NCBI GenBank assembly: GCA_025738555.1
Contig: JAOVFP010000010.1
Span: 4,289,501 to 4,353,500, forward strand
Direction: 5' to 3'
Length of the DNA stretch: 64,000 bases
Origin: Cyathus striatus
Taxonomy: Eukaryota; Basidiomycota; Agaricomycetes; Agaricales; Nidulariaceae
The notes beneath the pieces were generated by a model. It saw nothing but the letters and a program-made list of their open reading frames with translations. It was not told where the DNA came from and made no database searches. Shown here in pieces: positions 29,091 through 62,209 of this stretch. Each line of letters opens with the position of its first letter. Positions within the stretch are counted from its first letter, which is position 1. The position numbers and the translations under genes are program-made.

Positions 29091-29147
29091 TCGAGCTATA
29101 AACACAATTAGCCTCGACAAAACAGTAGGAAAGACAGAAAGACTTAC

Positions 29148-34856: not shown

Positions 34857-35723
34857 GGTATATTGGTAACTTGGTGGATATGATTTTGGATGGTGGCTGT
34901 TTTTGTGGAAGGACTTGAAAAAGAGAATAGGCCAAGGGAGGAACAAAGACGGTGTTGATTAAGATGCGATGGCTCGTGAGTCGTGAGGTCCGTGACGTGA
35001 CCGAGACAGCGCGGGACTGTACAGTCACGTGATGCAGAACAATTGCAATGGCAAGGTTGGACAATGGAGTGATGAACTCCTCGCCAGCAGCAGAGGGACA
35101 CTTGCTGAAAATTCAGACAATGCAACTTACGCCCGACAATCTTTATACTTGTGTGGAACTGGTAGATCTTACGCTGTGCAATCTCTCTGCAAATCAATGC
35201 TGTTCAATCTGGATTCTGTCAAGGCGACCCTTGCTATAGATTGCCAATGCTATGATCTACAGGAACTGAAGCTGCAGCTCACTTTACCCTGTGATAATCT
35301 TGAAGTTATTGCTAACTCAGAGCACCTTTCAAGGGATATAAGGCGAACGAACCGGTAGGAGGAAGGATGGTGACTCACAGCAGGTACCTGCGCGTCCCAT
35401 TCAATAGCTTTACGTCTCGACAAACCTGTGGTGAAAGCTGTAGAAAGTTGTGAGTTTAAATTTATGCGGTGTTCAGGACGTGTATGGTGGAATCGGGTGG
35501 CATGGTATGGAGACTGTTCATTGTGGGCCATGGGACGGTGCACACGGCTCCCCCCATTTAGTTGTGGGCAAGTCCCTTTGCATAGCTCTTTACTCGATTT
35601 TTTAAAGGTACATATGCCTTTCATTGCACCTCGATCTGACCGTTATCTACATGATTACTATCCGGAACCGAAGTTTTTGTTTTTGTTATCGTCAAGGGTG
35701 AAGCCGGAACGTATCATGTATTA
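34857..35723. other. Intergenic between CNB1 and MSS1
   Basis: The CNB1 upstream region on one side and the MSS1 3' region on the other. No gene recognised. The plus ORF starting at 35428 is mostly antisense to MSS1. Confidence 0.45.
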
Positions 35724-37554
35724 CTACTTGCCGATACAAAACTCCGGGAACACCACATCCAGTATGTCCTCCACGTCTATCGCACCCGTCACCCGTCCCA
35801 CCGCCTGCGCTGCATACCGCAGCTCCTCAGCTGCAAATATCACGTCGTCCGGCGCTGCTAATGCATCAGCCTCACGTCTTATTGTCTCAAACAAGCACCT
35901 ACGAGTGTCCAAGAACGCCTGCAGAAACCTTGCCGCGCTTTCTAGATGCATCCGGTGTCTCTCCCGAGTAATGATGGGCGTTCGAGAGTCAGGCATATCT
36001 CCCAGCTCAAACTTCTTTTTCAACCTCTCTCCGAATCCGGTGAGGAAATCCTGCGTCCCTTGTCCCGTCTGCAGACTTGCTATCCATGCGCGCTCGAGAG
36101 GTACATGGCTCGAGGAGGCAAGATCGGACTTGTTGAGCAGGAAGAGCGTTTCTGGTGTTACGAGTGCCTTTAGTTCCTCTGGTATGTTAAGCTCTCCGCT
36201 GGGCGTGGCCGCGTCGGGAAGGGATAGGACGCAGAGTGCAATGTCTGCTTCCTTCACACTACAATCATTAGTCAATGTTCACTCACAATAAGATGCACCT
36301 ACGCCTTCCTGGCTCTCTCTACGCCAATCTTCTCTACGACATCCTTCGTGCCTCAACCCCGCTGTATCAGCCACAATAACCGGCAATCCACCAATGTCCA
36401 ACGAGAGCTCCAGTATGTCCCGTGTGGTGCCTGGGATGGGGGTTACGATGGCTGCCTCCCTCTGAGCTGTGTAAAGTGAGTACATGCCAGAAATGAAAGA
36501 AAGACACGTACCCAGGAAGTTAAGCAGACTGCTTTTTCCTGCGTTTGGAGGGCCAAAAATGGCGAGTTTTATACCAGAGCGTAGTATCTCTCCTCGTCGT
36601 GCATCCGACAAATGAGACTGAATCATCTTCAACAATTCCTCCGCACGCTGTCTAGCTGCACACGATCAGACCCATTTGAGAATGAACGGGAGAAACCAAC
36701 CATCTTCCACAACACCGTCCTCAATCTCCTCCCCTTCCCCAAAATCAATAACAGCCTCAATCAGCGCCTGGCATTTGATAATCCCACTTCTAAGTCCATC
36801 CAGCTCGCGCCTTGTCTCTCCCTACACACCATGAGCACCTGCCTAATACAACCAAAAAAGACGAGCTCACCCACCCCAACAGCGCCCCTCGCCCCACGCC
36901 TCTGCGCCTCCGTCTGGGCATCAATAAGATCCATCACGCCCTCCACCTGCGTCAAGTCCATCCGCCCAGCCAAGAACGCGAGACGCGTAAACTCCCCTGG
37001 CTCAGCTTGTCGTGCATACGGCAACGATCCCAAAGCGCGAAGTATAGATGAAATGAGAGCAGGCCCCGAATGGGTGTGTATTTCAAGTGTCGGTTGGGTC
37101 GTGTATGATTTTTGTGCTTGTACAACCTAAGTACACCATATACAAGATAGATATATAACAACGAACCTTGGAAAAAGACAGCCAATCCGTCATCTAACAC
37201 CTCCTCCGTAACTGGATGGACAATTTTACACCGAACCATCTTCCATGGCTCAGGATCCCTCGCTTTGCCTTTACCGAAAGGGCGAACCATGGCATGGTAC
37301 ACGCTCAATGACTCGGGTCCAGAGACGCGAAAGACTGCGACGCCAGCTTTGCCTGCGGGTGTGGAGAGCGCGTAGATTGTGCTTTGTTGTGCTGGAGAGA
37401 GTGGGAGGGATGAGGGGGAGGTGGATGCATAGCAGATGTAGGGGTTGTGTGGTTTACGCTTTGGGTTGAGGTGGTGCTGAGAGTAGGGGCGAGGACGGGA
37501 AAGTCTGGTGAGGGGGTGGGCTTTTGTTGTGGTTCTTTTGAGGGTGTTTAACAT
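35724..37554 (-). CDS. MSS1: Mitochondrial tRNA modification GTPase Mss1/TrmE(MnmE), one frameshift
   Basis: MnmE-family GTPases with Mto1 make the wobble-uridine modification of mitochondrial tRNAs. Exons 37167-37554, 36875-37116, 36701-36821, 36512-36655, 36303-36466 and 35724-36258. A basic, Ser/Thr-rich leader ([20 protein letters not shown]) fits mitochondrial import. The TrmE N-domain starts [20 protein letters not shown] and includes [20 protein letters not shown] motifs: GPPNAGKSS (G1), GTTRD (G2), DTAGLR (G3), NKSD (G4). The C-terminus is [10 protein letters not shown] with the conserved cysteine. Just after DTAGLRHE an extra G (cc at 36343-36344) shifts the frame; removing one base restores [14 protein letters not shown]. 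So either a consensus error or a recent loss. Exon 1 and part of exon 2 are duplicated at 58483-59013. Confidence 0.9.
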
Positions 37555-38149
37555 GGTGGATGGTGAATTCGCGTCGTAGCAAATTGAATTACCGGACCCG
37601 TGACCTGAGCTCCCTCTCGACTCTTGGGATCACCGCATTTCCAGCTTACACCGTTGACCACTGTCCGAAAGCGTGCTACGTTGTGGACGACCCAGGAATT
37701 CCCTCTGGGTTCTCAGGTCCAGGCCTCCGGAAGCGCATGCGACGATATCAGGTTATGTGGTGTCAAAGGCACTATTAGTATTGGGGCCCAAGCCAGCTTC
37801 CAATCAACTTCCAATTACCCTCTTTGACGGTGATCATGCTCTCTACATGGCAGGAAGATCGACGTTAATGTCCTCTCCCCGCTTGCAAGCCCGGGCACGA
37901 CCGCACATAAGATTGCCACTGATATTAGGCTGTTGGCTAATTTATGAAGAATCCTAGGCGCTCAGAGCGCGTGTGCAGACTCTTGAAGCATCTCATGGTC
38001 TTGCATCAAAATGTGCGCTGACGACTTCTAGCGCGTAGTACGCTTAGTGATAGGTAAGTTGTTTAATAGCCCATTTCTTCATTTCACTAATCACCTCCTT
38101 TCATAGCGTAAACCGTCGCATTACTCTTCCGTAAGGTTTCTTGACGTCT

Positions 38150-38590
38150 ATGAGGGGCGGCCGTACGCTCAAAATGCGCTCGCACAACCTCGCTGGGTAT
38201 TCAGCTTTGATTTTACACCTGCTTCACCGATCCGCTATTCCCCAACTCATTAAATCTGGGCGAATTCCTTGGCGTCTTCGGGTGTTGATACACGTTGGCC
38301 GTACGCACAAAACGCGCCCTTGCGCACGTATGCAGCCTCGCTGGATATTCACCTTCGACATTACATTTTCTCCTTCCCCCTTCTGCTATTTCCCCTCTAC
38401 TCCATCAAATCCGGGCAAATTCTCTTTCATCTTTGGGTGTTTATAGCCCTTGGCTGTATGCTCAGAACGCGCTCCCATGCGCTTGCGCAGCCTCACTGGA
38501 TAGTCAGCTCAGTTTACATATCAAATCTAGACGGGTTTCCTTGCATGTTCGGGTGTTGATACCCCTTGTCTGTATACTCAAAATAACCAA
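38150..38590. repeat. Imperfect tandem repeat, ~3 units of ~140-155 bases
   Basis: Units share ggccgtacgc.caaaa.gcgc, cctcgctgg.tattca, ..ctattcccc..ctc, atcaaatc.gggcaaattc and gggtgttgatac. They start near 38158, 38296 and 38450, with a partial fourth near 38566. Overlapping ORFs of about 100 codons here are a by-product of the repeat. Confidence 0.8.
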
Positions 38591-38776
38591 ATTCAATTTG
38601 AAATTCTGTCTCACATTCATGTAAGTTCCCAAAATATATACATTCGTTACGTGCTACAATTTTAACAGAGTCATCTAAGGTCAAACGAAAAGATCTGCCG
38701 GGACGCTGGAGGTCGGTTAGTACATTCGTTGCTGGCATTTAAATTCAAGAGCCCACATACCAAGTCGTCCCCCAGA

Positions 38777-39348
38777 TTATCCCACCAACTTCTCGATTGT
38801 TTCGTTCAGCAATGCCGCGACATCTTCTTCAAACATGAATTCATCATCCCAAGTCTCTATTGACCCTTCGAACTGTGTGGGCAAAATCATAAGATGAATC
38901 GATGATTAAATTTGAAAGTGCAAACCTCAAAGTCACGGATCTTTAGCTTCGACCCGCCCCAAAGCCATTGAGGCTGTTGTGCGTCATACTTCTCAGTGGG
39001 TGTCGAGGAGAATGAAATGACGTCGTGATGGGATTCTTTCTCGGCGGGAAATATGGGTATGAAACGCTCTCTTGCGGCGATGTTGATGCTGCGGAAGGCC
39101 TCCCTGAGTGATGTCGCCTTTCCAAGGGTGGTAAGGTACGTCACGAGGATGAAGCCTTCGCGATGGTCGACATGCAAGATGACGAGCGGGTGCTTCATTT
39201 CATAAATGGACTTGGACTTCCGAGTACTAGCTACAGCTGCGCTGTCGGTGAAGGCGTCGACAGATATTAGTTGACCTGACATCCCTTTCCTCCCATTGAG
39301 GATCATACCAGGACGCAGGGAGGAGAACGGGACAGCTGAACGAGTCAT
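38777..39348 (-). CDS. Orphan 172-residue protein (left-arm copy, intact frame)
   Basis: Two exons (38926-39348, 38777-38872; GTTTGC donor, CACACAG acceptor). The N-terminus MTRSAVPFSSLRPGMILNGR is followed by a beta-rich region (HPLVILHVDHREGFILVTYL), then RFIPIFPAEKESHHDVISFS, QWLWGGSKLKI, and an acidic tail FEGSIETWDDEFMFEEDVAA. No known domain; the beta-rich core could be a small barrel. In the right arm a missing G breaks the same gene. Confidence 0.65.
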
Positions 39349-41648
39349 TCTTTAGAGTTGTAAAGGGTGCCATTGCCGCTCACTGAATTTATAAGATCAT
39401 AAAATCAGTTTCAGAATTCTTAAAGCAGCTGGTGCTTCTGGTTAATTTTCGAAGTAAGTGCCATTTACTGTAGAAATTGAAAAGCCATATATAACCTGAA
39501 AGCGCTTCTATAATAAATTACTCAAAGTACAATCTATCTATCTATCCATCTATAAATATATAAAGGAAGTAAGTGTTTTCTGCTTTTGGTATTTTTTGTC
39601 CCTTTTGGAATGGGTCTTTCCCACAGCTCAGTTTCAGCTTCAACGTGTGGGGGTCGCATTTGAAAGTGCCGAGTGCAACAAGCCGTAACATATTATTGTA
39701 CAGATTATTCTGTTACTGGTGAGATTCTTTGAAATCACTAGGTAAGTATGTCTAGCAACACTTAATTAGTTCCAAGAATAGTTCTTTAGAATGATAAGCG
39801 CTTAGCGCTTAGCCTTGGACCTTTCTCTGACCTGTGACCAGTTGACCTTCCATGTTGCTTCCATGTGCGTCAGTCATGGATACCTGAAAGCAGGATGCTG
39901 TGCCGTGCGGTGAGAGCAATTATGTCATGTATTAGTATGCGGATATCGAGGCGCCTTGGTTTTACGTCGAGGGCCGAGAGTCGAGACACCTCGAGCTCAA
40001 CTGGCCGAGTTCTTGGAAGTTGGATCTGCCTCACGGCCCTTACCACGTCAAGCTCGGAGCTTTGAAGCGTCAAACAGGACCCCCGAAAGTGCCCATAGAG
40101 GTATGATACCGGTCCGCAGAAATTTTGGGACCTTTGGATGTCGGAGGACAGTCCACGTATGGAATGGCGCGCAGAAGGAGGTACCATTCGCTGTCCGGTG
40201 CCGAAGGTTGGCGGGGGGCGCCGCCGCACAGAGCATCCCAGTCCTGGGGCCCGGAGAACTTCATAGCGCCAATCGGGACTCTCGCAACGGAACGAAGGTA
40301 GTAGCCAAGGGGAAGCGCGTGAAGCGTCTCAGTACCAACGAGATTGATATTAAAACACGAGCACCATGTAAGACAAATGGATAGAGGGAACAGAGATAAA
40401 ACTATAGAAAATAAGTGGGATGGGGCGAGACGAAGCCCAAACAAATACGGAGTGAAGAAAACAAAAGGAAATTACATAAACTAACAGCACGGGTGCGTCA
40501 AAACCCTCAAGCAGGAAAACCCAGTGGGAAAAATCTGCTATCATGGGGGAAAAGCTACCGGGCAAGTGTGGTACAAATACAGTGGTAAGAAAGTAGTAAG
40601 TGATGAATAAGGTAAGTTAAAACCTGGGGAAAGGGAGGGCGGGTAGCCGAAAATTATAGATAGCGATAGTGATAGAGACCTGGTGCAGGGGAAAGGAGGG
40701 AAGTTAATAAGCGGATATTAACACACAAGAGAAATACCTGGTGCAGGAGAGAGGAGGAATGCGGATCATCTAATCCCACCAAACTCTTTGTACCATTCGC
40801 GCAGCTAGCTCCAAGACATGATCACGGTCTAGCCATTGGGAATAAATTACATGAGGGATCGAGACGAGTTGGAGAGCGTCAGTGGCCTCGAACGGGAGGT
40901 CATAATGAGCTCACTCACAACAGCGATTCAATCCGGTACCAGCCGCCCGCGAAATGATGGCATTTCACGGCCCGAGGGCTACTGCGCTGCCGTCCCTACT
41001 GGCCCAGTGCAAGATACCCTTGAATAGAAATCTTACAGTGCAGTCACACTTGTTATAGTCACTACACAGAACCGCGCGGTGTTGGCACTGTGCCCGGCAG
41101 CCCGACCGGTACCTAGTACTTCCAGCCTCCTGGTGATCTTATTTCACAGCAACAATATTCTTGAGGAACCTTTGGATAAAAAAACTTACCCTCATAGACT
41201 ACCGAGTAACCCAAGAGTAACTAGTCACTACTGCATAAGTCAACAAGTCTCTCGAATCACCCTTGTCCATCCTACGTCGAGGCAAAATTTTCGTTTGTCG
41301 TTGTTGTTGCGCTCCTCTTGAGCAACTGAGCCTAGGTAATGCCGCCGTGCACTTGTAACTGTGTTATTGTATGCCTTGCTGGGATCGTCGCACCTTCTTC
41401 CATGTGTCTGAGCTTCTTCCCGGTATCGTGGTGCCAATTGCGGAAGCTGAGCTACTGTATAGGCTGTACTTGGAAGAAGGCGGACCAGCTCTTTCTCAGC
41501 AACCGTGGTGACAGCGTGACATCGTGACAGGGTAACGATGAGGGGGCTTAAAGTGACTCGTGTTCGTCCATACCGTAATATACATAAGGCCCCACCAAGC
41601 GGTAAGCGAAGGCCCAAATCTCTTTCTAGCCAACGACTAGCATTTCTT
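39349..41648. other. Gene-free stretch of left arm (mirror: 54388-56689)
   Basis: Holds a small ATCT microsatellite (39533-39552) and a gcgctta/taagcgc palindromic patch near 39797-39815. Overlapping ORFs of up to 142 codons around 39865-40445 lie on both strands with no motif. The same statement applies to the right-arm mirror. Confidence 0.45.
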
Positions 41649-43222
41649 ATGAATTCACTCAAATCCTTTCACATCAGGAGCTTCATTGGAGCAGGTGGAT
41701 ACGGTAAGCCTATACCAACGGGGGGTGTTAATGCATGTAGATAATTAATGATATTTCTTGCAGGCATGGTGCATAGCGCAATCGGGCCTGATGGTCAATT
41801 AGTCGCAATTAAGCGAGAGCTTGCATCGGACAAAGTTAACCGCCCAAATTTGCAACACGAATATAATGTTCTGAAGGCCCTTGCTGGTCATGAATCCATC
41901 CCCAACGCGATCGCATACGGCTCTTTGGATCATGTTAACGCCCTGGTAATGGATCTTCTTGGACCAAGTGTAGCGGAGTGTTTCGCACTCCGCTCCTACA
42001 AATTCAGTTTGGGAACATTGACGCATCTTGCTATTGGAATGGTAAGCCTGAATTGCAAAAGCCTGGAAGTATGCTTATGTTGAACTAATGCTTCTGCCCG
42101 CAGCTTAGTGCCATACAATATATCCACTCTCAAGGGTTTATTCATCGCGATATTAAGCCTTCAAACTTCGTACTCGGACGCGGCTATAAGTCGCATGTTG
42201 TACATCTAGTTGATTTTGGACTCACACGACGTTGGAGAACTGTGACGGATGAGACTCCTACGGCCCTCCGTGCGGGAGGGGGTATCATTGGAACTCCACA
42301 TTATGTCTCAACGTTTACTCACCTTGGACAAGGTATGTCTTACGTCGTGGTTACTGGACATCGCCTTTGATACCTCTTTCTCAGAACAAACCCGTCGGGA
42401 CGATCTTCATGCACTGACTTACACCATTCTTTTTTTGGCCCGCGGAAGTCTTCCATGGAGTTGTGTGAAAGGAGGGACAAAAAAGCATTCATCTCAACGC
42501 ATTCTCGAGAAGAAACGCTCATGGACTGCAGCTCGACTCTGCAAAGATCTCCCGATCGAACTACAACTCTTTTCAAGCTATTGTCTTTGTCTCGCAATTA
42601 ACGAGGTGCCCGATTATCAGACCCTACGGACACTGCTAGCTACACTTGCTATCCGAGAGGGATGCAATCATGCTGACCTACAATTGGAACTGCAGGAATG
42701 TACAGGCGAGTTCTTATGCGTTAATATGCGTATGCGTGCTGAATCTGAATAAAAAGCATATGCGAGGCCTTGCATTTCATCTCCTCTCTACCGAAGGTAC
42801 CCATACCATCTGTCAAACGGGGCGACGTAATTCTCTTAAAGCTTAATTCCAACAAAACTCTTGATTACGAGCATCCTCCTCGTTGCCTCGATCCTAGCTT
42901 CTTTCCTCACCAACTATCCATGCCGAAGCGGGGCTTTCCTTACCGTCCGGCCGTCGTTCGCAGCGTCACAACCACGGAAGATGATCCTACATATTTTAGT
43001 TTGGAAGTATATCCCATTACGCGGCGCAGCAACCTCGAAGGACTTTCTACTCACCGTAGGTCCTGTTTTCAACAATTGGAGATGGTTGTCGAGAATGCTA
43101 CTGGGAATCCGGTGCCCTTCCATGACTTATACTTGTACAGAACTATTGCATCATTCCGGTTCACTCTGGAGTACAACCAGGCATGTCCCCTCTGTTTGAA
43201 AGGTTTAAATATGCTCTACTAG
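41649..43222 (+). CDS. CK1-like Ser/Thr kinase (left-arm copy)
   Basis: Exons 41649-41703, 41764-42041, 42104-42332, 42385-42719 and 42767-43222 (about 450 residues). Seen: glycine loop FIGAGGYG across the first splice, catalytic Lys in LVAIKRE, HRDIKPSNFVL, DFGLTRRW, IIGTPHYVS, QTRRDDLHALTYTILFLARG SLPW split by spacing here, typical of casein kinase 1. Then a C-terminal module VKRGDVILLKLN / FPYRPAVVRSV / YFSLEVYPITRR, which many agaric CK1-like proteins share. A possible upstream start is 41538. The 47-base intron 42720-42766 keeps the frame. The C-terminal end is uncertain and may continue into 43254-43706. The kinase exons are identical in the right arm. Confidence 0.82.
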
Positions 43223-43253
43223 ATACTTGAGTTAGACCGCAAGTATCCAAGCT

Positions 43254-43706
43254 ATGACGAGCATACCCGACCATATCTTTACAACGCTTGAAAGGCGGCT
43301 ATCAGGGGAAAAAATCCGTATCGGCTGACGTACGACTCGGACGATGTTGAAACTCGCAATGTTTTCAAACGGTTACCGAAAAGGTGGCTTGACATGACTG
43401 CTGTTATGGATATGCGACCTTGCGGCGTGGCCGACCTCGCTGGTAAGAAAGGTGTAAATGTTAGCGGTTGTAATGGTTGGATTTCGGAGATGACACTCGT
43501 TCACGAGATTAGGAAACACGAGAACGAGACGGGAGAGTAAGTCATTGGTTTCACTTTAGGCGGTTAATCACAAATGTATTAACTATTTTCCTTTTAGTGA
43601 TAACTCTTCTTCTGATGACGACGAAGATTACCCAATGGAGTTCTGTGGCTGGGCGCTGCCGAGTAACCGACGGCTGTCATGTACGGTAGCTATCGCATGT
43701 GCGTAG
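43254..43706 (+). CDS. Orphan acidic-tailed ORF or 3' exons of the kinase (left copy, frameshifted)
   Basis: Left-arm version of the gene at 52328-52781. Here the A run in aggggaaaaaatccg is 6, not 7, so MTSIPDHIFTTLERRLSGEK is followed by a stop. The second exon 43598-43706 (GTAAGT donor at 43537, TTTTAG acceptor) is unchanged and reads DNSSSDDDEDYPMEF. Confidence 0.5.
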
Positions 43707-43779
43707 ATGTGCATGTGAGGAATAAATGACAAGTTACCTTCTGTTACCTTCCTGAACAACATATGTATTACAACCTCTT

Positions 43780-44000
43780 GGCAGGGTTTGTTCAAGGTCC
43801 GTTGGTACAGGCTCCTGAATATCCCTACTACAGTCTGTTGCCAATCCGGACAAAAACAGGGGCCTACGGCCCCGGAAGCTAGACGCATTCCGGACAAATT
43901 TGGGGGCTGGAGGGCTTCACTCATAGAACATTGACCCGGACAGGATTACGGAAAATTTGGCACATAGACGAGTATCCGGACAAAATCTGGACAGGTAGGC
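43780..44000. repeat. Dispersed repeat with tccggacaaa words (left arm)
   Basis: Words ccggacaaa / ccggacag recur five times in 220 bases, together with gaatatccctac and agacgcattccggac. It has a mirror at 52034-52254 and a diverged relative at 60875-60995 carrying gtccggaatgtgtctagg and ccgaatatccctac. Confidence 0.7.
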
Positions 44001-44048
44001 CTGATCTTCAAATCAAAAAATATATTGATTATATAACCTGTATACTTA

Positions 44049-44396
44049 CGGTAATGCGCTTCAGCTCAATCGTGTCACTTTGTGTGGTCGTCCCGCTTTT
44101 CAATACCTGGCCATCGAGCTCCAACCAACGCCTCACTAAATGCCCAATCTCAGTGAAAAATTCCTCAATACCAGCTACAAGTTTTGTGTCTTTGTTCTTG
44201 TGCTCTCGTATCCCACTTCGAAGATCTTACCTCTTGTTAAGTTTTTATGTTCTCTCCAACGCCCCATTATCACTAATTGCCTCTCCAAATGCTTATTAAC
44301 GTTGCTGTCGAGCAGACATTCACCGCGGGCAATTGCTTCTAAATCCGGTGAAAATATTGAGAAAATACGGCGAGCTTGAGACACTACGTTATACAA
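44049..44396 (-). CDS. Orphan coding fragment (left-arm copy)
   Basis: Mirror of 51638-51985; see that entry. Unknown function. Confidence 0.35.
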
Positions 44397-44949
44397 GGAG
44401 ACATTGGCTCAGCAGTACGGCGTTGACATGTCGTACGCAGGGACCGAGAGCTGCTGCGCTATACATTCACATCAAGGATTTTCGCCCATAGTTTGAAAAA
44501 GTTTGTAGAGTCCAATTATACCAACTGCGCGTGCGCATGTCAAGCGTGAAAATAGCAAGTCTAAAGTGAGTCTTCGGAGCAGTTTATGAGTATTCTTTTC
44601 ACCGCCCCGTACCCTTAACCGTCCTCACCATAGCCCACAAAATCTCCCTCGCACCGTCCGCCTATGTGATGAGTTGTGCATTGCATTGTACTATGCAAGT
44701 ACCATGCTTCGATGTCGCAAGCTTCCTTCGAGAAATCCTGAGGACAGTGGTAACACGAATCGTGATTACCACTAGCCTCTTTAACACAAGTACTTCAGTA
44801 CGTACCGAGAGCTCGGCAAGCGTACAGCAGAACTATCGGAGTGTGGGGCTGGTGAGTGGGAGTGTCAGCGGTGAATTAGGAGGCTAGGGGGATAAGTAGC
44901 GTACCAGCATATATGCATTTTAATCACGTGGCCGTCTCTGCAAACCACG

Positions 44950-46155
44950 AGGCAATCTGGTTGGGCATGAAAGGACTCTATATATACCTAGCCACCGCTT
45001 TGTTGCTACTTTTCTTCCCTCACTGCGTACGCTCGACTCCCTCCGTTCTCATATTTGACACTATACTACAATACTGCTCGTTATTACCAATGGTTTTAAC
45101 TCGTTCTGCCAAAGTACGTATTGTACCGTCACTTGCGATTCAATTCGTGCACTGACATCTTGCAGGTTGCGTCTCTGTATTCTGGTGTAAGTTATTATGT
45201 TACTGCAAGATACATCATCCGGCTAGATGCTCCACTGGCCCACGTATTTCTACCTTGAGGTGAAGGAGCGAAACTTGAAGCAGAATCTGACAATTACCCA
45301 TTACAAGAAGGAGGTTATTTATGCGATTGACGTCGTGAAGGTGTCTATTGGAAAATACCCAACACATTCGCTGGCAGGACAATTATTCTAGATATTAGAA
45401 GACTCTTATTACGTTTATGCTCAATGACGACCCTAACGGTGAATGTCCGGGACTGGCCAAAGGCTATTGCAGGCTCTTATTTAACCACCTGCAGCTGCCT
45501 ACACTTCGCATCTTTAGTGGGGAGGGACTTCCTCATACGTGTATGTCTGGCTTCATCTTGAAAAACCCCAGCCTGGAATCATTCACACTAGGAAAGTGTG
45601 ACTCGCGATCATCTAGCTGTCCTCTTGGTCGTGGTATACGACTCCAGCACCTTGTGGACTTTGGTAGTACGCCATGTATCATGAATCTAGCAGTCCCAGA
45701 TAACATCAGTTACATTACGCTGAACTTCGACATATCTCGACTACCGAACAATTTAATTTTGCTGTGACCCTCACCCTTGAACTTCCAAATGCTGATGGAG
45801 ATCTATTTGGAAAGCTGGTCAAATATATGCCCAACATTCGTTTTCTCCATCTCACGGAGACCAACTATTCTGTGAATTTGTTCATTATCTATCATTATTT
45901 TAACTGACTTCCTGTACTGTAGATACATCACATCGAAGCCGTCAATCTTACCATTTCGCATGAGTCGATATGCCGCCTGACTTTGCTGAAGGAGTTTACT
46001 TGGAAAAAGAACGTAAACTAATTCAGCCGTCCGGTAGCATCTGCGACGAGAAGGATCTCATAAATGATTTAGCTGGTAATTGGCAAAGCTATGATTTTGT
46101 AGCAAATCTAAATGTAGTATCACTGTATTACGGCACTGAAACTCCCAACCAGTAA
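44950..46155 (+). pseudogene. F-box/LRR-like relic
   Basis: Stretches PTLRIFSGEGLPHTCMSGFI, LESFTLGKCDSRSSSCPLG, VPDNISYITLNFDISRLP and, in another frame, FAVTLTLELPNADGDLFGKL then MPNIRFLHLTETNYSV resemble the leucine-rich, beta-strand-forming parts of expanded basidiomycete F-box proteins. A stop and frameshift near 45765 divide it and no F-box start was found. Call is by general pattern only. Confidence 0.45.
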
Positions 46156-46456
46156 CAGCGTAGCGTGTGGACACGCAGTGCCAAATTTCGATGGAAGAGG
46201 GACAGCGACTCTGTCGGGGAAATTTAAACTCCTTGGACTTTTACCGGACTACTTTTCTTGAACTTCAGTGTACTATATAGTTGTTTTTCGTTCTTAGATT
46301 ATAAATTTGATTTCTATTGTAAGTTTGTCAATTCTGTAGAGATCTAGCACTGGATTTATCAATGGCAAGGGCCTTAAATTTATTAAAAAGTCAAACAGAA
46401 TTTTAAATCACGTGCTGAAAGTACGTAGTACTTATGTGACTTACAAGGTCACAGCA

Positions 46457-47889: not shown

Positions 47890-47939
47890 GTCCGGTGTCC
47901 ACTGTCCACTCGATTTTACCATTGTCTGTCTCCTGAGTA

Positions 47940-49150
47940 CTGAGTACTGAGTCCTCGTGCATTCGGTTGCACAGAGTTGAGCTCAAATTCAGTTATCTAG
48001 TACAATACGCTTCACAGCATCATCGCCTGCGACGCGAGTCGCAGACTATGGTCTGGATTACAATCGCATGTGCCGACACCGTCATCGGCAGTGGTCTCAT
48101 GAGCTTTTAGGCACTTCGATGATTATATTGATGTCTCCTCGTGCATTGGCTGTGCTGAGTTGGGCTCGATCCCCCAAGGCGCTCTCGTATCAACTTTCGA
48201 TGACTTTACTGGGGGCTGCTGTGTTTGGTAAGTCAGTTTGCCTGCTCTCGCTAGTGCTCAGTACTCAATCATCTAGTGCAGTATATCTTCACATTACGGA
48301 TCGCACGGCCGTATTCGCGTACGCTTCACAATATCCTCGCCTGCGACGCGCGTCACAGACCATGGTCTGGATCCATTACGATTGCATATACCGACACCGT
48401 CCTCGGCAGGGGTTTTTTATCGTTGTCTCCTCTTGCATTAGCTGCACAGGGTTGAGCTCAACCCTATTCAAGGCGTTCTGGTATAAACTCTTGATCGCTG
48501 TACTAGTGGCTGTTCAGTCTCCAGAATTTATCTACGAGTCACACTCGGTAGCTACGGGATCTCCTGTGGCAGTGACGACCCTGGGATGACGGGGGATGCA
48601 GAGTTGAGCTCAGCTCCTCATGTTGGATGTTGAGGTAGTGCTGTATCGACATGCACTCGCTTTTGTACGACACTCGCGCTGTGCTACAACCCAACATCGT
48701 ACGGAGCTAACGTCAGCTCATACAACACATCGGCGCCAACGTGGTTTGTCGTCATCATCAACGGAGGCGCTACAGTGTTACGTCACACAGTCACACGGCT
48801 TGTGCGGAATGTTCAATGTCTTAAAAATCATTTGCATCTCAAGAACATTGAGTTCTGGCTACATGAAGGTGATCTTCTTTAGTTGCCGGCCATCAGGTTG
48901 TATTCTGTTACTGTCCTCCTACATGAAGTGTAGCTGCAAATTTCACCGTGTTGTGGCATTTTATGATGGCTTTACTGGGGGGTGCAGCTGTTTTCTGTGT
49001 TTGGTAAGTCAGTTCGCCTGCCCCCGCTAGTGCTCAATACTCAGTTATCTAGTATAGTATGCTTCACATCATCCTCGCCTGCGACGCGCGTCACGACTAT
49101 GGCCTGCATAACAATTTCATATACCGGCACCGTCCTCAGCAGGGATCTCA
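47940..49150. repeat. Cluster of degenerate repeats
   Basis: A unit with atctagta.a.tat.cttcaca, cctcgcctgcgacgcg.gtcac, atggtctggat and taccgacaccgtcctcggcag occurs at about 47990-48105, 48270-48415 and 49035-49145. A second word set (gactttactggggg, gtttggtaagtcagttt, cgctagtgctcaatactcag) occurs at 48204-48275 and 48971-49045. A third (ttgcattagctgcacagggtt-like, gagttgagctca) occurs at 47958, 48137, 48433 and 48600. The order suggests repeated partial duplication. Confidence 0.7.
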
Positions 49151-51637
49151 CTCAAGATATTTTACGCATTTCGTTGATTCCCTGTTCGATCAGCATAGCC
49201 CATTGTCTCGTATCAGAACTCTGGATTTAATCGTGAAAATCCTGCTGCTATTCAATTTCGCACGCTAATGCTTAGTGCACCCGACCTCATGTAGAAATGA
49301 CGATATCTTCGGATTCCCGTCTTGGCCACCCGTAAACCAACCTACTGTCCTGATCAATTCCGAGATGTTAGTATTCGTCATTCACCAACTCTCCGTCTGT
49401 CCTTGCGCTCGAGCTGGATGCCAGGTTGCACGCCGAGCAAAGATCTTCAGGTGATCAGTATGCTTCTTCACCTCTTCAGCGGACATATTATTCGCCGCTG
49501 CATTATTATTATGATGAGCCTTCGCTCCCCGCTGACGGAAAGACAAACCTCAGGTTTCATCAACTCCTCCCATATCTCCTTCCACCCCATATACCCCCGA
49601 ACATCCTCATCGCTCACCAATTTCCCCTGCCCACCGACGCCAATTCCACCGCCTGCGAGGCTCTGCCCCATGATCCGTCTGATTGTTGGCTTTTGAATAC
49701 CTGTTGTACGAGGGTTTAAGTACGGGAAGAGAATGAGGGAGGAAGTAAGAGAAAGGGAGATGAAGAAAATGAGTCAAGCTTATACTGCCCTGAAGGTTGC
49801 GAAGGCTCTAACATAACGCATACTCACAACCACAAAACACACAGACGTGAACCTACGCAAGCGTTCAAGGCAGAGCCCCATCCAGCCGCAGTGAACTAAG
49901 GCACAAAGCCCACGTATGAGCGAGGGAGAGGGAGAGGAAGCTATAGACAGGTGAGGACGGTTGGCTGAAAGCCGGCAAAACTCCAATGGGAGCAGGTATC
50001 GTATAGAATGGCTGTAGGGAAAAGAAAGGGAAGTAAGCATGCTGCTTGGACAAGCCAACAACACGAACACACGACATACCAACTGTCCTCTAGACCTCCA
50101 TTTCCCAATACGCTGTATGCGTTCCATGTATGGCCATGTCTCCAGAGTTGCAGGCCTTGCAGCCTCTATACATACTGGAGCTATGACGTGTTTCTCGAAT
50201 TGAATCATGATGCTGGACATGGGAATGGACGACGTACATCAGGTGCAAGTAGTTGGCGATCGTACGGTTTCGAAGCGGGTCTCATCCAGAACAGGTGGGT
50301 ATGGAGAGGGAAGTGGGCTCAACCGGAATCCCATACCCGGATGCAGGGGGCAAATATCCCACCGCGGTCACCGATCGAGTCGACGCTCCTACTGCCCACC
50401 GCCCACCTTCCAATACCCCAAGCGCCACAGACCCCTGCAAGCTTCCCCTCCCCTCAAGGAACGTAACCTCCCAATCAACTTTAAAAGCGTTTGTCCTCTC
50501 GTCCTCGTTTTCTCCTTCCGTTTCACTTCAACCACCTCTGGTTGAGGCGCTGGCGAGTTGGCTGTGGAATGTCGACTATGGTTTGGCGAAGTATTCACGA
50601 AGGAAGAGGTAGGCAGGAGAAGTGTTACGATTGCAAAGAAGCTCGCTATTTGCGTGAAGGCGAGATGGTAAACGACGACGCGTGCAAAAAAAAAGTCGCT
50701 CAACTCTGAATCACTTTCGTCAATCCTGACCCAACAACTTCAACCACTCTCAACCCAGCTCCACCTACCGCAGCAGCTACCAGCAATCCTTGTACATTTT
50801 GCTTGTAACATTCCTGTTGGGGCACGAGTCCGAATCTTACTCGCCAGTACTTGGCATCCGTGCTTGTTTTTGTGCCGAATGTTGTCGTCGAGTGAGTTCT
50901 GCGCTCGTATTCCTGATTCTAACCACTGAAAGTGATATATGTCGTAGGACCGTTACTCACGGTCGCAACTACGCAAGAGTCGAATTAGCATTTTTTGGTG
51001 CCGGATACTTGCATCTGTTCTCGACCGTACTCTATGTATAGACATAGTGGTGAATCACAAGTAGTAGCGGTAAGCAATTGGATCTTTTAACGTTGTTTTT
51101 CTTCTGATGACCGCTGTGAAGAATCTTAGGTACGCTACTTATCCCCCTAGCCTCCTAATTCACCGCTGACACTCCCACTCACCAGCCCCACACTCCGATA
51201 GTTCTGCTGTACGCTTGCCGAGCTCTCGGTACGTACTGAAGTACTTGTGTTAAAGAGGCTAGTGGTAATCACGATTCGTGTTACCACTGTCCTCAGGATT
51301 TCTCGAAGGAAGCTTGCGACATCGAAGCATGGTACTTGCATAGTACAATGCAATGCACAACTCATCACATAGGCGGACGGTGCGAGGGAGATTTTGTGGG
51401 CTATGGTGAGGACGGTTAAGGGTACGGGGCGGTGAAAAGAATACTCATAAACTGCTCCGAAGACTCACTTTAGACTTGCTATTTTCACGCTTGACATGCG
51501 CACGCGCAGTTGGTATAATTGGACTCTACAAACTTTTTCAAACTATGGGCGAAAATCCTTGATGTGAATGTATAGCGCAGCAGCTCTCGGTCCCTGCGTA
51601 CGACATGTCAACGCCGTACTGCTGAGCCAATGTCTCC

Positions 51638-51985
51638 TTGTATAACGTAGTGTCTCAAGCTCGCCGTATTTTCTCAATATTTTCACCGGATTTAGAAGCA
51701 ATTGCCCGCGGTGAATGTCTGCTCGACAGCAACGTTAATAAGCATTTGGAGAGGCAATTAGTGATAATGGGGCGTTGGAGAGAACATAAAAACTTAACAA
51801 GAGGTAAGATCTTCGAAGTGGGATACGAGAGCACAAGAACAAAGACACAAAACTTGTAGCTGGTATTGAGGAATTTTTCACTGAGATTGGGCATTTAGTG
51901 AGGCGTTGGTTGGAGCTCGATGGCCAGGTATTGAAAAGCGGGACGACCACACAAAGTGACACGATTGAGCTGAAGCGCATTACCG
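51638..51985 (+). CDS. Orphan coding fragment (right-arm copy)
   Basis: The reading starts YNVVSQARRIFSIFSPDLEA, continues HLERQLVIMGRWREHKN, then changes frame near 51800-51850 to REHKNKDTKLVAGIEEFFTE and RRWLELDGQ, ending at a GTAAGT donor (51986). Protein-like composition, charged and helical. The frame change is the same in both arms, so it predates the duplication or hides an intron. No family recognised. Confidence 0.35.
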
Positions 51986-52033
51986 TAAGTATACAGGTTA
52001 TATAATCAATATATTTTTTGATTTGAAGATCAG

Positions 52034-52254
52034 GCCTACCTGTCCAGATTTTGTCCGGATACTCGTCTATGTGCCAAATTTTCCGTAATCCTGTCCGGGT
52101 CAATGTTCTATGAGTGAAGCCCTCCAGCCCCCAAATTTGTCCGGAATGCGTCTAGCTTCCGGGGCCGTAGGCCCCTGTTTTTGTCCGGATTGGCAACAGA
52201 CTGTAGTAGGGATATTCAGGAGCCTGTACCAACGGACCTTGAACAAACCCTGCC
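52034..52254. repeat. Dispersed repeat with tttgtccgga words (right arm)
   Basis: Mirror of 43780-44000. Confidence 0.7.
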
Positions 52255-52327
52255 AAGAGGTTGTAATACATATGTTGTTCAGGAAGGTAACAGAAGGTAA
52301 CTTGTCATTTATTCCTCACATGCACAT

Positions 52328-52781
52328 CTACGCACATGCGATAGCTACCGTACATGACAGCCGTCGGTTACTCGGCAGCGCCCAGCCACAGAACTCCATT
52401 GGGTAATCTTCGTCGTCATCAGAAGAAGAGTTATCACTAAAAGGAAAATAGTTAATACATTTGTGATTAACCGCCTAAAGTGAAACCAATGACTTACTCT
52501 CCCGTCTCGTTCTCGTGTTTCCTAATCTCGTGAACGAGTGTCATCTCCGAAATCCAACCATTACAACCGCTAACATTTACACCTTTCTTACCAGCGAGGT
52601 CGGCCACGCCGCAAGGTCGCATATCCATAACAGCAGTCATGTCAAGCCACCTTTTCGGTAACCGTTTGAAAACATTGCGAGTTTCAACATCGTCCGAGTC
52701 GTACGTCAGCCGATACGGATTTTTTTCCCCTGATAGCCGCCTTTCAAGCGTTGTAAAGATATGGTCGGGTATGCTCGTCAT
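52328..52781 (-). CDS. Orphan acidic-tailed protein, 130 residues (right copy, intact)
   Basis: Two exons (52498-52781, 52328-52436). It begins MTSIPDHIFTTLERRLSGEK and contains KRLPKRWLDMTAVMDMRPCG, GWISEMTLVHEIRKHENE, then the acidic stretch SSSDDDEDY and ends TVAIACA. An in-frame TAG lies just before the ATG, so it can be a separate gene. But it directly follows the kinase tail and could be its last exons. No known domain. The left-arm copy has one A fewer. Confidence 0.55.
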
Positions 52782-52812
52782 AGCTTGGATACTTGCGGTC
52801 TAACTCAAGTAT

Positions 52813-54387
52813 CTAGTAGAGCATATTTAAACCTTTCAAACAGAGGGGACATGCCTGGTTGTACTCCAGAGTGAACCGGAATGATGCAATAGTTCTGTAC
52901 AAGTATAAGTCATGGAAGGGCACCGGATTCCCAGTAGCATTCTCGACAACCATCTCCAATTGTTGAAAACAGGACCTACGGTGAGTAGAAAGTCCTTCGA
53001 GGTTGCTGCGCCGCGTAATGGGATATACTTCCAAACTAAAATATGTAGGATCATCTTCCGTGGTTGTGACGCTGCGAACGACGGCCGGACGGTAAGGAAA
53101 GCCCCGCTTCGGCATGGATAGTTGGTGAGGAAAGAAGCTAGGATCGAGGCAACGAGGAGGATGCTCGTAATCAAGAGTTTTGTTGGAATTAAGCTTTAAG
53201 AGAATTACGTCGCCCCGTTTGACAGATGGTATGGGTACCTTCGGTAGAGAGGGAGATGAAATGCAAGGCCTCGCATATGCTTTTTATTCAGATTCAGCAC
53301 GCATACGCATATTAACGCATAAGAACTCGCCTGTACATTCCTGCAGTTCCAATTGTAGGTCAGCATGATTGCATCCCTCTCGGATAGCAAGTGTAGCTAG
53401 CAGTGTCCGTAGGGTCTGATAATCGGGCACCTCGTTAATTGCGAGACAAAGACAATAGCTTGAAAAGAGTTGTAGTTCGATCGGGAGATCTTTGCAGAGT
53501 CGAGCTGCAGTCCATGAGCGTTTCTTCTCGAGAATGCGTTGAGATGAATGCTTTTTTGTCCCTCCTTTCACACAACTCCATGGAAGACTTCCGCGGGCCA
53601 AAAAAAGAATGGTGTAAGTCAGTGCATGAAGATCGTCCCGACGGGTTTGTTCTGAGAAAGAGGTATCAAAGGCGATGTCCAGTAACCACGACGTAAGACA
53701 TACCTTGTCCAAGGTGAGTAAACGTTGAGACATAATGTGGAGTTCCAATGATACCCCCTCCCGCACGGAGGGCCGTAGGAGTCTCATCCGTCACAGTTCT
53801 CCAACGTCGTGTGAGTCCAAAATCAACTAGATGTACAACATGCGACTTATAGCCGCGTCCGAGTACGAAGTTTGAAGGCTTAATATCGCGATGAATAAAC
53901 CCTTGAGAGTGGATATATTGTATGGCACTAAGCTGCGGGCAGAAGCATTAGTTCAACATAAGCATACTTCCAGGCTTTTGCAATTCAGGCTTACCATTCC
54001 AATAGCAAGATGCGTCAATGTTCCCAAACTGAATTTGTAGGAGCGGAGTGCGAAACACTCCGCTACACTTGGTCCAAGAAGATCCATTACCAGGGCGTTA
54101 ACATGATCCAAAGAGCCGTATGCGATCGCGTTGGGGATGGATTCATGACCAGCAAGGGCCTTCAGAACATTATATTCGTGTTGCAAATTTGGGCGGTTAA
54201 CTTTGTCCGATGCAAGCTCTCGCTTAATTGCGACTAATTGACCATCAGGCCCGATTGCGCTATGCACCATGCCTGCAAGAAATATCATTAATTATCTACA
54301 TGCATTAACACCCCCCGTTGGTATAGGCTTACCGTATCCACCTGCTCCAATGAAGCTCCTGATGTGAAAGGATTTGAGTGAATTCAT
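52813..54387 (-). CDS. CK1-like Ser/Thr kinase (right-arm copy, tail frameshifted)
   Basis: Mirror of 41649-43222. The four kinase-domain exons translate identically, so the catalytic domain is whole. At 53251-53253 there is one more base in the run (ctccct against ctcct in gene orientation), which shifts the frame at the start of the C-terminal exon. The GDVILLKLN / YRPAVV / YPITRR module then needs a different frame. Real change or consensus error. Confidence 0.75.
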
Positions 54388-56689
54388 AAGAAATGCTAGT
54401 CGTTGGCTAGAAAGAGATTTGGGCCTTCGCTTACCGCTTGGTGGGGCCTTATGTATATTACGGTATGGACGAACACGAGTCACTTTAAGCCCCCTCATCG
54501 TTACCCTGTCACGATGTCACGCTGTCACCACGGTTGCTGAGAAAGAGCTGGTCCGCCTTCTTCCAAGTACAGCCTATACAGTAGCTCAGCTTCCGCAATT
54601 GGCACCACGATACCGGGAAGAAGCTCAGACACATGGAAGAAGGTGCGACGATCCCAGCAAGGCATACAATAACACAGTTACAAGTGCACGGCGGCATTAC
54701 CTAGGCTCAGTTGCTCAAGAGGAGCGCAACAACAACGACAAACGAAAATTTTGCCTCGACGTAGGATGGACAAGGGTGATTCGAGAGACTTGTTGACTTA
54801 TGCAGTAGTGACTAGTTACTCTTGGGTTACTCGGTAGTCTATGAGGGTAAGTTTTTTTATCCAAAGGTTCCTCAAGAATATTGTTGCTGTGAAATAAGAT
54901 CACCAGGAGGCTGGAAGTACTAGGTACCGGTCGGGCTGCCGGGCACAGTGCCAACACCGCGCGGTTCTGTGTAGTGACTATAACAAGTGTGACTGCACTG
55001 TAAGATTTCTATTCAAGGGTATCTTGCACTGGGCCAGTAGGGACGGCAGCGCAGTAGCCCTCGGGCCGTGAAATGCCATCATTTCGCGGGCGGCTGGTAC
55101 CGGATTGAATCGCTGTTGTGAGTGAGCTCATTATGACCTCCCGTTCGAGGCCACTGACGCTCTCCAACTCGTCTCGATCCCTCATGTAATTTATTCCCAA
55201 TGGCTAGACCGTGATCATGTCTTGGAGCTAGCTGCGCGAATGGTACAAAGAGTTTGGTGGGATTAGATGATCCGCATTCCTCCTCTCTCCTGCACCAGGT
55301 ATTTCTCTTGTGTGTTAATATCCGCTTATTAACTTCCCTCCTTTCCCCTGCACCAGGTCTCTATCACTATCGCTATCTATAATTTTCGGCTACCCGCCCT
55401 CCCTTTCCCCAGGTTTTAACTTACCTTATTCATCACTTACTACTTTCTTACCACTGTATTTGTACCACACTTGCCCGGTAGCTTTTCCCCCATGATAGCA
55501 GATTTTTTCCCACTGGGTTTTCCTGCTTGAGGGTTTTGACGCACCCGTGCTGTTAGTTTATGTAATTTCCTTTTGTTTTCTTCACTCCGTATTTGTTTGG
55601 GCTTCGTCTCGCCCCATCCCACTTATTTTCTATAGTTTTATCTCTGTTCCCTCTATCCATTTGTCTTACATGGTGCTCGTGTTTTAATATCAATCTCGTT
55701 GGTACTGAGACGCTTCACGCGCTTCCCCTTGGCTACTACCTTCGTTCCGTTGCGAGAGTCCCGATTGGCGCTATGAAGTTCTCCGGGCCCCAGGACTGGG
55801 ATGCTCTGTGCGGCGGCGCCCCCCGCCAACCTTCGGCACCGGACAGCGAATGGTACCTCCTTCTGCGCGCCATTCCATACGTGGACTGTCCTCCGACATC
55901 CAAAGGTCCCAAAATTTCTGCGGACCGGTATCATACCTCTATGGGCACTTTCGGGGGTCCTGTTTGACGCTTCAAAGCTCCGAGCTTGACGTGGTAAGGG
56001 CCGTGAGGCAGATCCAACTTCCAAGAACTCGGCCAGTTGAGCTCGAGGTGTCTCGACTCTCGGCCCTCGACGTAAAACCAAGGCGCCTCGATATCCGCAT
56101 ACTAATACATGACATAATTGCTCTCACCGCACGGCACAGCATCCTGCTTTCAGGTATCCATGACTGACGCACATGGAAGCAACATGGAAGGTCAACTGGT
56201 CACAGGTCAGAGAAAGGTCCAAGGCTAAGCGCTAAGCGCTTATCATTCTAAAGAACTATTCTTGGAACTAATTAAGTGTTGCTAGACATACTTACCTAGT
56301 GATTTCAAAGAATCTCACCAGTAACAGAATAATCTGTACAATAATATGTTACGGCTTGTTGCACTCGGCACTTTCAAATGCGACCCCCACACGTTGAAGC
56401 TGAAACTGAGCTGTGGGAAAGACCCATTCCAAAAAGGGACAAAAAATACCAAAAGCAGAAAACACTTACTTCCTTTATATATTTATAGATGGATAGATAG
56501 ATAGATTGTACTTTGAGTAATTTATTATAGAAGCGCTTTCAGGTTATATATGGCTTTTCAATTTCTACAGTAAATGGCACTTACTTCGAAAATTAACCAG
56601 AAGCACCAGCTGCTTTAAGAATTCTGAAACTGATTTTATGATCTTATAAATTCAGTGAGCGGCAATGGCACCCTTTACAACTCTAAAGA

Positions 56690-57260
56690 ATGACTCGTTC
56701 AGCTGTCCCGTTCTCCTCCCTGCGTCCTGGTATGATCCTCAATGGGAGGAAAGGGATGTCAGGTCAACTAATATCTGTCGACGCCTTCACCGACAGCGCA
56801 GCTGTAGCTAGTACTCGGAAGTCCAAGTCCATTTATGAAATGAAGCACCCGCTCGTCATCTTGCATGTCGACCATCGCGAAGGCTTCATCCTCGTGACGT
56901 ACCTTACCACCCTTGGAAAGGCGACATCACTCAGGAGGCCTTCCGCAGCATCAACATCGCCGCAAGAGAGCGTTTCATACCCATATTTCCCGCCGAGAAA
57001 GAATCCCATCACGACGTCATTTCATTCTCCTCGACACCCACTGAGAAGTATGACGCACAACAGCCTCAATGGCTTTGGGGCGGGTCGAAGCTAAAGATCC
57101 GTGACTTTGAGGTTTGCACTTTCAAATTTAATCATCGATTCATCTTATGATTTTGCCCACACAGTTCGAAGGGTCAATAGAGACTTGGGATGATGAATTC
57201 ATGTTTGAAGAAGATGTCGCGGCATTGCTGAACGAAACAATCGAGAAGTTGGTGGGATAA
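56690..57260 (+). pseudogene. Right-arm copy of the 172-residue orphan, frameshifted
   Basis: Identical to 38777-39348 except that tcagggagg is tcaggagg (G run of 2 at about 56934-56935). After TLGKATSL the frame runs into RPSAASTSP and ends early. Whether this is a real mutation or an error in a G run cannot be told from sequence. Confidence 0.7.
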
Positions 57261-57446
57261 TCTGGGGGACGACTTGGTATGTGGGCTCTTGAATTTAAAT
57301 GCCAGCAACGAATGTACTAACCGACCTCCAGCGTCCCGGCAGATCTTTTCGTTTGACCTTAGATGACTCTGTTAAAATTGTAGCACGTAACGAATGTATA
57401 TATTTTGGGAACTTACATGAATGTGAGACAGAATTTCAAATTGAAT

Positions 57447-57888
57447 TTGGTTATTTTGAGTATACAGACAAGGGGTATCAACACCCGAACATGCAAGGAA
57501 ACCCGTCTAGATTTGATATGTAAACTGAGCTGACTATCCAGTGAGGCTGCGCAAGCGCATGGGAGCGCGTTCTGAGCATACAGCCAAGGGCTATAAACAC
57601 CCAAAGATGAAAGAGAATTTGCCCGGATTTGATGGAGTAGAGGGGAAATAGCAGAAGGGGGAAGGAGAAAATGTAATGTCGAAGGTGAATATCCAGCGAG
57701 GCTGCATACGTGCGCAAGGGCGCGTTTTGTGCGTACGGCCAACGTGTATCAACACCCGAAGACGCCAAGGAATTCGCCCAGATTTAATGAGTTGGGGAAT
57801 AGCGGATCGGTGAAGCAGGTGTAAAATCAAAGCTGAATACCCAGCGAGGTTGTGCGAGCGCATTTTGAGCGTACGGCCGCCCCTCATA
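57447..57888. repeat. Mirror copy of the tandem repeat in the right arm
   Basis: Exact reverse-complement counterpart of 38150-38590, same number of units. Confidence 0.8.
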
Positions 57889-58482
57889 GACGTCAAGAAA
57901 CCTTACGGAAGAGTAATGCGACGGTTTACGCTATGAAAGGAGGTGATTAGTGAAATGAAGAAATGGGCTATTAAACAACTTACCTATCACTAAGCGTACT
58001 ACGCGCTAGAAGTCGTCAGCGCACATTTTGATGCAAGACCATGAGATGCTTCAAGAGTCTGCACACGCGCTCTGAGCGCCTAGGATTCTTCATAAATTAG
58101 CCAACAGCCTAATATCAGTGGCAATCTTATGTGCGGTCGTGCCCGGGCTTGCAAGCGGGGAGAGGACATTAACGTCGATCTTCCTGCCATGTAGAGAGCA
58201 TGATCACCGTCAAAGAGGGTAATTGGAAGTTGATTGGAAGCTGGCTTGGGCCCCAATACTAATAGTGCCTTTGACACCACATAACCTGATATCGTCGCAT
58301 GCGCTTCCGGAGGCCTGGACCTGAGAACCCAGAGGGAATTCCTGGGTCGTCCACAACGTAGCACGCTTTCGGACAGTGGTCAACGGTGTAAGCTGGAAAT
58401 GCGGTGATCCCAAGAGTCGAGAGGGAGCTCAGGTCACGGGTCCGGTAATTCAATTTGCTACGACGCGAATTCACCATCCACC

Positions 58483-59013
58483 ATGTTAAACACCCTCAAA
58501 AGAACCACAACAAAAGCCCACCCCCTCACCAGACTTTCCCGTCCTCGCCCCTACTCTCAGCACCACCTCAACCCAAAGCGTAAACCACACAACCCCTACA
58601 TCTGCTATGCATCCACCTCCCCCTCATCCCTCCCACTCTCTCCAGCACAACAAAGCACAATCTACGCGCTCTCCACACCCGCAGGCAAAGCTGGCGTCGC
58701 AGTCTTTCGCGTCTCTGGACCCGAGTCATTGAGCGTGTACCATGCCATGGTTCGCCCTTTCGGTAAAGGCAAAGCGAGGGATCCTGAGCCATGGAAGATG
58801 GTTCGGTGTAAAATTGTCCATCCAGTTACGGAGGAGGTGTTAGATGACGGATTGGCTGTCTTTTTCCAAGGTTCGTTGTTATATATCTATCTTGTATATG
58901 GTGTACTTAGGTTGTACAAGCACAAAAATCATACACGACCCAACCGACACTTGAAATACACACCCATTCGGGGCCTGCTCTCATTTCATCTATACTTCGC
59001 GCTTTGGGATCGT
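58483..59013 (+). pseudogene. Truncated MSS1 5' end (right-arm copy)
   Basis: Exon 1 (58483-58870) is identical to MSS1 exon 1 and its intron is intact. Exon 2 starts at about 58921 and is cut at 59013 after [20 protein letters not shown]. The G domain and the C-terminal cysteine motif are absent. It keeps the promoter side and could make a truncated product, but no tRNA-modifying enzyme. Confidence 0.9.
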
Positions 59014-62207: not shown

Positions 62208-62209
62208 TA

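Follow-up and report, generated by a model that had tools for sequence, protein, structure and literature searches.

Contig JAOVFP010000010.1 of the Cyathus striatus assembly GCA_025738555.1 carries a giant near-perfect inverted repeat, with two arms of 7.9 kb around a spacer of 6.2 kb, in the 64,000-nucleotide stretch that was analyzed as a whole and is here called the window (C10:4289501-4353500; the 24 contigs of the assembly, 107,453,461 bases in total, are labeled with C-numbers). In our assessment, to which we assign a probability of roughly 0.6, this is a real palindrome-like inverted duplication in one haplotype of a dikaryotic mushroom, in which the duplication is old and the arms were recopied after the haplotypes had separated.

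Structure of the Inverted Repeat

The repeat was delimited by BLASTN of the window against itself and consists of the following parts.

37024 to 44905, + strand: arm 1, 7,882 bp (self-BLASTN and gap placement)
51129 to 59013, - strand: arm 2, 7,885 bp, reverse complement of arm 1 (self-BLASTN and gap placement)
44906 to 51128, no strand: spacer, 6,223 bp

A single long inverted match connects 37024-44905 with 59013-51129 at 99.937% identity over 7,886 columns without any mismatch, i.e., all 7,881 aligned arm bases are identical and the arms are distinguished only by five one-base gaps. This is in full agreement with an earlier note, made from the letters of the window, that had claimed such a repeat with paired coordinates summing to 96034-96038; the sums found at the outer and inner edges, 96037 and 96034, respectively, fall inside this range. 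Identity reaches both edges without decay. Long inverted arms, very high identity and a distinct spacer, all seen directly in the assembly, constitute the structure expected of a homogenized inverted repeat, and we infer that the arrangement exists in the cell as well. A match that extends over 7.9 kb and is near exact rules out a chance match or a simple low-complexity repeat.

A second copy of the palindrome was not found in the assembly among the best 40 of 197 and the best 40 of 54 candidates. Likewise, the arm-specific part 37599-41548, taken as a whole, has no copy beyond the two arms among the best 40 of 120 candidates. For the spacer, none of the 61 matches listed (best 40 of 54 candidates) lies on contig C3, nor was there one in the 20 kb of C3 that were compared, and the spacer piece 44906-46456 matches itself only. 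A 58-bp match on C17 falls within the arm, outside the spacer. Scans for tRNAs and for Rfam families gave no match.

The Counterpart on Contig C3 and the Outer Junctions

The published assembly of Cyathus olla measures 47.8 Mb (PMC11186289). As the 107 Mb of the present assembly amount to about twice this size and paired contigs, e.g., C17 and C23, yield near-identical matches, we infer that both nuclei of the dikaryon were assembled. The segment C3:5903001-5923000 (L063, L065) aligns to C10 in inverted orientation. Five allele-like blocks, which are parts of longer C10/C3 matches, contain 416 substitutions in 18,248 aligned bases, corresponding to 2.28% (1.89, 2.18, 2.07, 3.36, and 3.30% in the single blocks). 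Two of these blocks flank the palindrome, whose outer ends both lie in copies of an MSS1/MnmE-like gene.

29000 to 35565: left flank, allele-like on C3 with 1.89% substitutions, colinear in inverted orientation
35724 to 37554, - strand: MSS1/MnmE-like gene (tRNA modification GTPase), copy A, full length, containing the arm edge at 37024
58483 to 59013, + strand: MSS1 copy B, truncated 5' end, at the outer end of arm 2
59013 to 59014: right outer junction; the 51 window bases around it are identical on C3 (L063 near 8219/8220)
59014 to 61084: right flank, allele-like on C3 with 2.18% substitutions, adjoining the common junction

Followed along C10, C3 comprises the left flank up to 35565, 394 bp of its own, an MSS1 fragment (58439-59013) and the right flank 59014-61084, beyond which it resumes at 63827 and runs on to the copies of the kinase and MSS1 genes that we term the C copies. 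At its allele-like place, C3 is without window positions 35566-58438 and 61085-63826. The 394-bp piece present only on C3 has no strong match, with one partial match of 70% on C1. The same truncation of MSS1 is directly seen at the right outer junction on C3 and on C10. The left outer edge at 37024, on the other hand, lies inside the continuous MSS1 copy A that runs on to 35724.

These features also bear on the question of an assembly fold-back. A folded read or assembly would give mirrored flanks, and for this reason a simple fold-back is unlikely: identity ends at 37024 and 59013, the two outer flanks are unlike, the junction on the right recurs on C3 and the left edge is located within a continuous gene.

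Age of the Duplication and Identity of the Arms

At the allelic divergence of 2.28%, about 180 substitutions would be expected arithmetically in the 7,881 bp had both arms existed since the split, against none observed; the 95% upper bound of arm divergence is 0.038%, which is less than 2% of the divergence between the alleles. The most informative part is the segment of 535 bp in which MSS1 copies A and B can be compared with each other and with the copies elsewhere. Here, A and B show no difference, while about 12 would be expected at 2.28%, and about 19 at the local rate, if B predates the split (Poisson probability about 5e-6 for the expectation of about 12). Over the same segment, A or B is separated from the C3 fragment by 22 substitutions (4.14%), from copy C by 24 and from the full copy on C3 by 19, and copy C differs from the full C3 copy at 19 positions (3.55%). 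In addition, the arms and the truncated copy on C3 have in common an altered stretch upstream, about 40 bp long, which is present in neither of the C copies. As this stretch and the right junction also occur on C3, MSS1 copy B seems to be older than the split of C10 and C3. Since B would be older than the split and nevertheless shows no difference from A, the two copies were probably copied onto each other after it. The identity between the arms of this old segment, marked as such by its junction, is a direct observation.

The kinase genes, two casein-kinase-1-like models that also form part of the repeated block, contribute to the dating.

41649 to 43934, + strand: casein-kinase-1-like gene of arm 1, mechanical gene model, frame interrupted at 42782 and 43308
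52100 to 54387, - strand: casein-kinase-1-like gene of arm 2, mechanical gene model, intact frame, Pkinase PF00069 with E 2e-23

The arm kinase diverges by 4.6% from the neighboring C copy and by 4.9% from the one on C3, while the latter two differ by 1.4%; sites particular to one copy number 95 in the arm, 12 in C and 19 in C3. These distances and site counts place the duplication of the kinase before the split.

Taken together, an older duplication would have set copies of an MSS1-plus-kinase block side by side in inverted orientation. One of its outer ends, the truncated MSS1, would have persisted in the other haplotype, the remainder having been lost there or never present. After separation of the haplotypes, homologous recombination would have copied the arms onto each other in the C10 haplotype, either by gene conversion between the inverted arms or by break-induced copying that started in the homology of the truncated MSS1. 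The four-way site patterns are close to balance and favor neither A nor B as the source of the copying. A further-reaching version, in which an inverted duplication older than the split has had its 7.9 kb kept identical by repeated conversion, has a 6.2-kb spacer that flips and is matched in the partner nucleus by the outer stump only, is proposed here tentatively. Inversion of the spacer by recombination between the arms is plausible; its orientation cannot be read from the sequence because identical arms leave the junctions unchanged by flipping.

The inner border of arm 2 would also fit another history.

48960 to 51132, + strand: repeat-family segment with relatives on C16, C7, and C12, cut here and fused to arm 2
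51128 to 51132: right inner junction, at which 3-4 bases (GTA/GGTA) fit both the element and the arm

A single recent event would have sufficed if a break beside the truncated MSS1 had been repaired by copying about 7.9 kb of the inverted left block and joining the copy by microhomology to the broken repeat element, so that arm 2 would be new. The undecayed identity of the arms is in line with this proposal, as is the finding that C3 has a short truncated copy only. Moreover, the right inner junction looks like a repair join: it cuts a repeat-family element whose relatives on C16, C7, and C12 keep their similarity beyond the point of joining arm 2, and GTA/GGTA is a possible microhomology. However, in such an event the invading end of B should have stayed unchanged, yet its 535 bp equal A to the last base, such that conversion of B (or of A) would be needed in addition. 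We consider this course of events rather unlikely as the whole explanation.

Several observations weigh against an old, recopied duplication. A single break-induced copying would also account for most of arm 2, conversion being needed only for the last 535 bp. Within the block, the ages derived from MSS1 and from the kinase disagree: MSS1 has 31 own sites in A, 25 in C and 22 in C3, a near-star pattern that does not mirror the old duplication of the kinase. Among the variable sites of the 535-bp segment, three favor grouping the C3 fragment with the arms and three and one favor the alternatives; as the site patterns do not pair, the case for copy B on C3 as the allele of the end of arm 2 is carried by the junction together with the upstream stretch (about 40 bp). 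Three junctions are seen on C10 only, namely the two inner ones and the left one at 35566-35695, where the flank passes into MSS1 copy A, and the structure is known here from the sequence of one assembly. Finally, C3 might be a segmental duplicate instead of an allele, which would leave the junction argument intact.

The comparison of two haplotypes supports concerted evolution only in the outermost 535 bp of arm 2, and one fresh copying event and continuing conversion are indistinguishable with these data. The earlier note had offered youth, gene conversion and an assembly fold-back as choices for so perfect a repeat. This statement is partly supported: the absence of substitutions speaks for recent copying between the arms, a simple fold-back is unlikely, and the outer end of arm 2 appears old.

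One-Base Differences Between the Arms

Four of the five gaps are in arm 1, from which single bases are missing at 39602 (T), 40528 (A), 42782 (C), and 43308 (A); the fifth, at 39102 (C), is in arm 2, and every one of them falls in a single-base run. Gap placement thereby confirms the earlier statement that the arms differ by five one-base changes in homopolymers and by no substitution; the site then called G is the C at 39102, read as its complement. In the allelic comparison over the five blocks, 445 differences are composed of 416 substitutions and 29 indel events, eight of which are one-base homopolymer indels. The rate of this type is similar in the arms (5 in 7,881) and in the allelic background (8 in 18,248), and the chance that five of five differences belong to it under natural divergence is about 2e-9. 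Real mutations are therefore an unlikely source of the five differences. Because alleles differ mostly by substitutions, whereas the arms show nothing but one-base homopolymer indels at a rate near that of the background, the simplest reading is that these indels are consensus errors and that the arms would be truly identical, with individual real short indels possible.

Alignable relatives exist for three of these sites. At 42782 and 43308 their length matches the longer form, that of arm 2, while at 40528 they carry seven As and the arms only five and six; no relative was found at 39102 or 39602. The gaps at 42782 and 43308 break the frame of the arm 1 kinase, whereas the models of arm 2, C and C3 are open. 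In a small open reading frame (ORF) the situation is reversed, with an intact frame in arm 1 and a frameshift in arm 2.

38887 to 39348, - strand: 153-aa ORF of arm 1, open frame
About 56687 to 57147, + strand: arm 2 counterpart of the 153-aa ORF, frameshift at 56936

Differences of this kind, one-base homopolymer gaps with at least one per arm breaking a reading frame, also occur in long-read consensus and would be in line with the palindrome itself being an assembly artifact, either because arm 2 was built from reads of arm 1 misjoined via the MSS1 homology or because polishing erased differences between the arms. We judge such an artifact improbable. The outer flanks differ, the right junction is found independently on C3 and the left edge is part of a continuous gene; the inner join would require an artifactual fusion on merely 3-4 bases, and the gaps are distributed unequally, with four in one arm and one in the other.

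Genes and Repeat Elements

The gene models of the window, which were derived mechanically, show short introns. Together with the closest proteins, which come from Cyathus striatus, the spliced genes led to rejection of a bacterial origin, a question on which the empty tRNA and Rfam scans carry little weight. Pfam families TrmE_N, MnmE_helical, and MMR_HSR1 were found on the C3 copy of MSS1, with which copy A has an aligned identity of 97%. Compared with copy C (C10:4356526-4358361) and with the C3 copy alike, copy A has indels of 1 bp and 2 bp; it is possibly a decaying duplicate, and the 1-bp indel could be a consensus error. The C3 copy shares 94% identity with a partial protein of Cyathus striatus (66% of the query) and 58% with a protein from Crucibulum laeve (91% of the query). 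The best relative of the arm kinase also stems from Cyathus striatus, with 83% identity over 95% of the query. The C. striatus relatives of kinase and MSS1 are each recorded on a contig of 777,524 bases and hence probably lie on one contig and on one stretch of chromosome there too. No Pfam family was detected in the 153-aa ORF at E 0.01. The earlier claim that two genes are present twice as mirror images holds roughly: the kinase and the ORF of about 153 aa lie in either arm, to which the 5' end of the MSS1/MnmE-like gene has to be added, full length only on the left. Further casein-kinase-1-like relatives with 72-77% DNA identity to 41623-43974 are located on C16, C6, C17, and C23, and the family looks expanded in this fungus.

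Repeat elements other than the one cut at arm 2 occur in the arms and in the spacer.

40269 to 41024, no strand: repeat element copy in arm 1, mirrored at 55012-55768, relatives of 68-96% identity on at least 10 other contigs
46457 to 47889, no strand: spacer element of about 1.4 kb with inverted ends of about 40 bp, copies on C20 (99%) and C12 (91%)

A motif of 47 bp at 44321-44367, the very point at which the C block ceases to be similar, was found as a single end. Elsewhere it occurs as an inverted pair about 920 bp apart (C3:4640330/4641251; C4:1658728/1659649), and these paired motifs resemble the ends of a small DNA transposon. To the right of the palindrome, 61085-63826 consists of nested repeat elements on C10 that are absent at the C3 counterpart; the flanking C3 matches overlap by 4 bp, as would a target duplication. 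Within this region, 61223-62209 has inverted ends of about 38 bp and at least 10 near-full-length copies of 92-99% identity, while 62208-63803 matches C14 at 98%. Further repeat pairs are found in the left part of the window, one inverted (10047-10350/28629-28930, 94%) and one direct (13961-14346/24993-25385, 89%).

Inverted arms, a distinct center and absence from the other haplotype are properties that the palindrome as a whole would have in common with a giant transposon using its 7.9-kb arms as terminal inverted repeats. This explanation is highly implausible and was rejected, since a discrete insertion with a target duplication is not seen at the outer edges: inspection by eye of the bases around the junctions revealed no target duplication of at least 3 bp. 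In addition, the left edge falls within a continuous host-type gene, the arms hold host-type genes, a further arm-specific copy is missing among the best 40 of 120 candidates, and no transposase family was recognized among the 10 peptides scanned, which do not represent all frames.

Comparison With Known Systems

Among the matches listed in the open-licence literature, nothing on fungal palindromes or large inverted repeats corresponded to the present case; no search for this very locus was made. In Saccharomyces, the flip/flop region of chromosome XIV contains a 4.2-kb inverted repeat that is homogenized by gene conversion and occasionally inverts (PMC9731477). It resembles the mushroom locus in being a nuclear inverted repeat of a fungus that measures a few kb, carries genes in both arms and has near-identical arms, with homogenization inferred from genome comparison. 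The mushroom arms are longer, the spacer measures 6.2 kb, the structure is present in one of two haplotypes and flipping was not observed.

In the palindromes of the human Y chromosome, e.g., P6, conversion tracts average 2,068 bp and reach a maximum of more than 9 kb (PMC3723533). These palindromes likewise have large arms, their identity above 99.9% is ascribed there to gene conversion, and a tract of more than 9 kb could span an arm of 7.9 kb. That study typed 378 Y chromosomes and estimated conversion rates, whereas the mushroom locus is represented by one assembly and two haplotypes. Unlike the Y palindromes, the mushroom locus is linked to a sex or mating-type region by none of the evidence tested.

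Inversion in Ogataea polymorpha is reportedly driven by recombination between inverted repeats. At the mating-type locus of this yeast, also named Hansenula, a DNA region inverts as a unit (PMC4238957, PMC5720833). Inversion there serves regulated mating-type switching, in contrast to the window, where no mating-type gene was recognized among the 10 scanned peptides. Microhomology-mediated break-induced replication, proposed for human copy-number variants (PMC2621351), is similar in that a copied segment ends at a junction of a few common bases; in the present case the mechanism would be deduced from a single junction.

If the palindrome is real, homogenized inverted repeats as known from yeast and sex chromosomes would extend to a locus in a mushroom. 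The other haplotype would then provide an internal clock, by which the age of the repeat's outer end can be set against the split, and the decision between conversion and youth would become directly testable in other strains. Judged by these analogies, the mushroom palindrome would work most like the inverted repeat of Saccharomyces chromosome XIV and the palindromes of the human Y chromosome.

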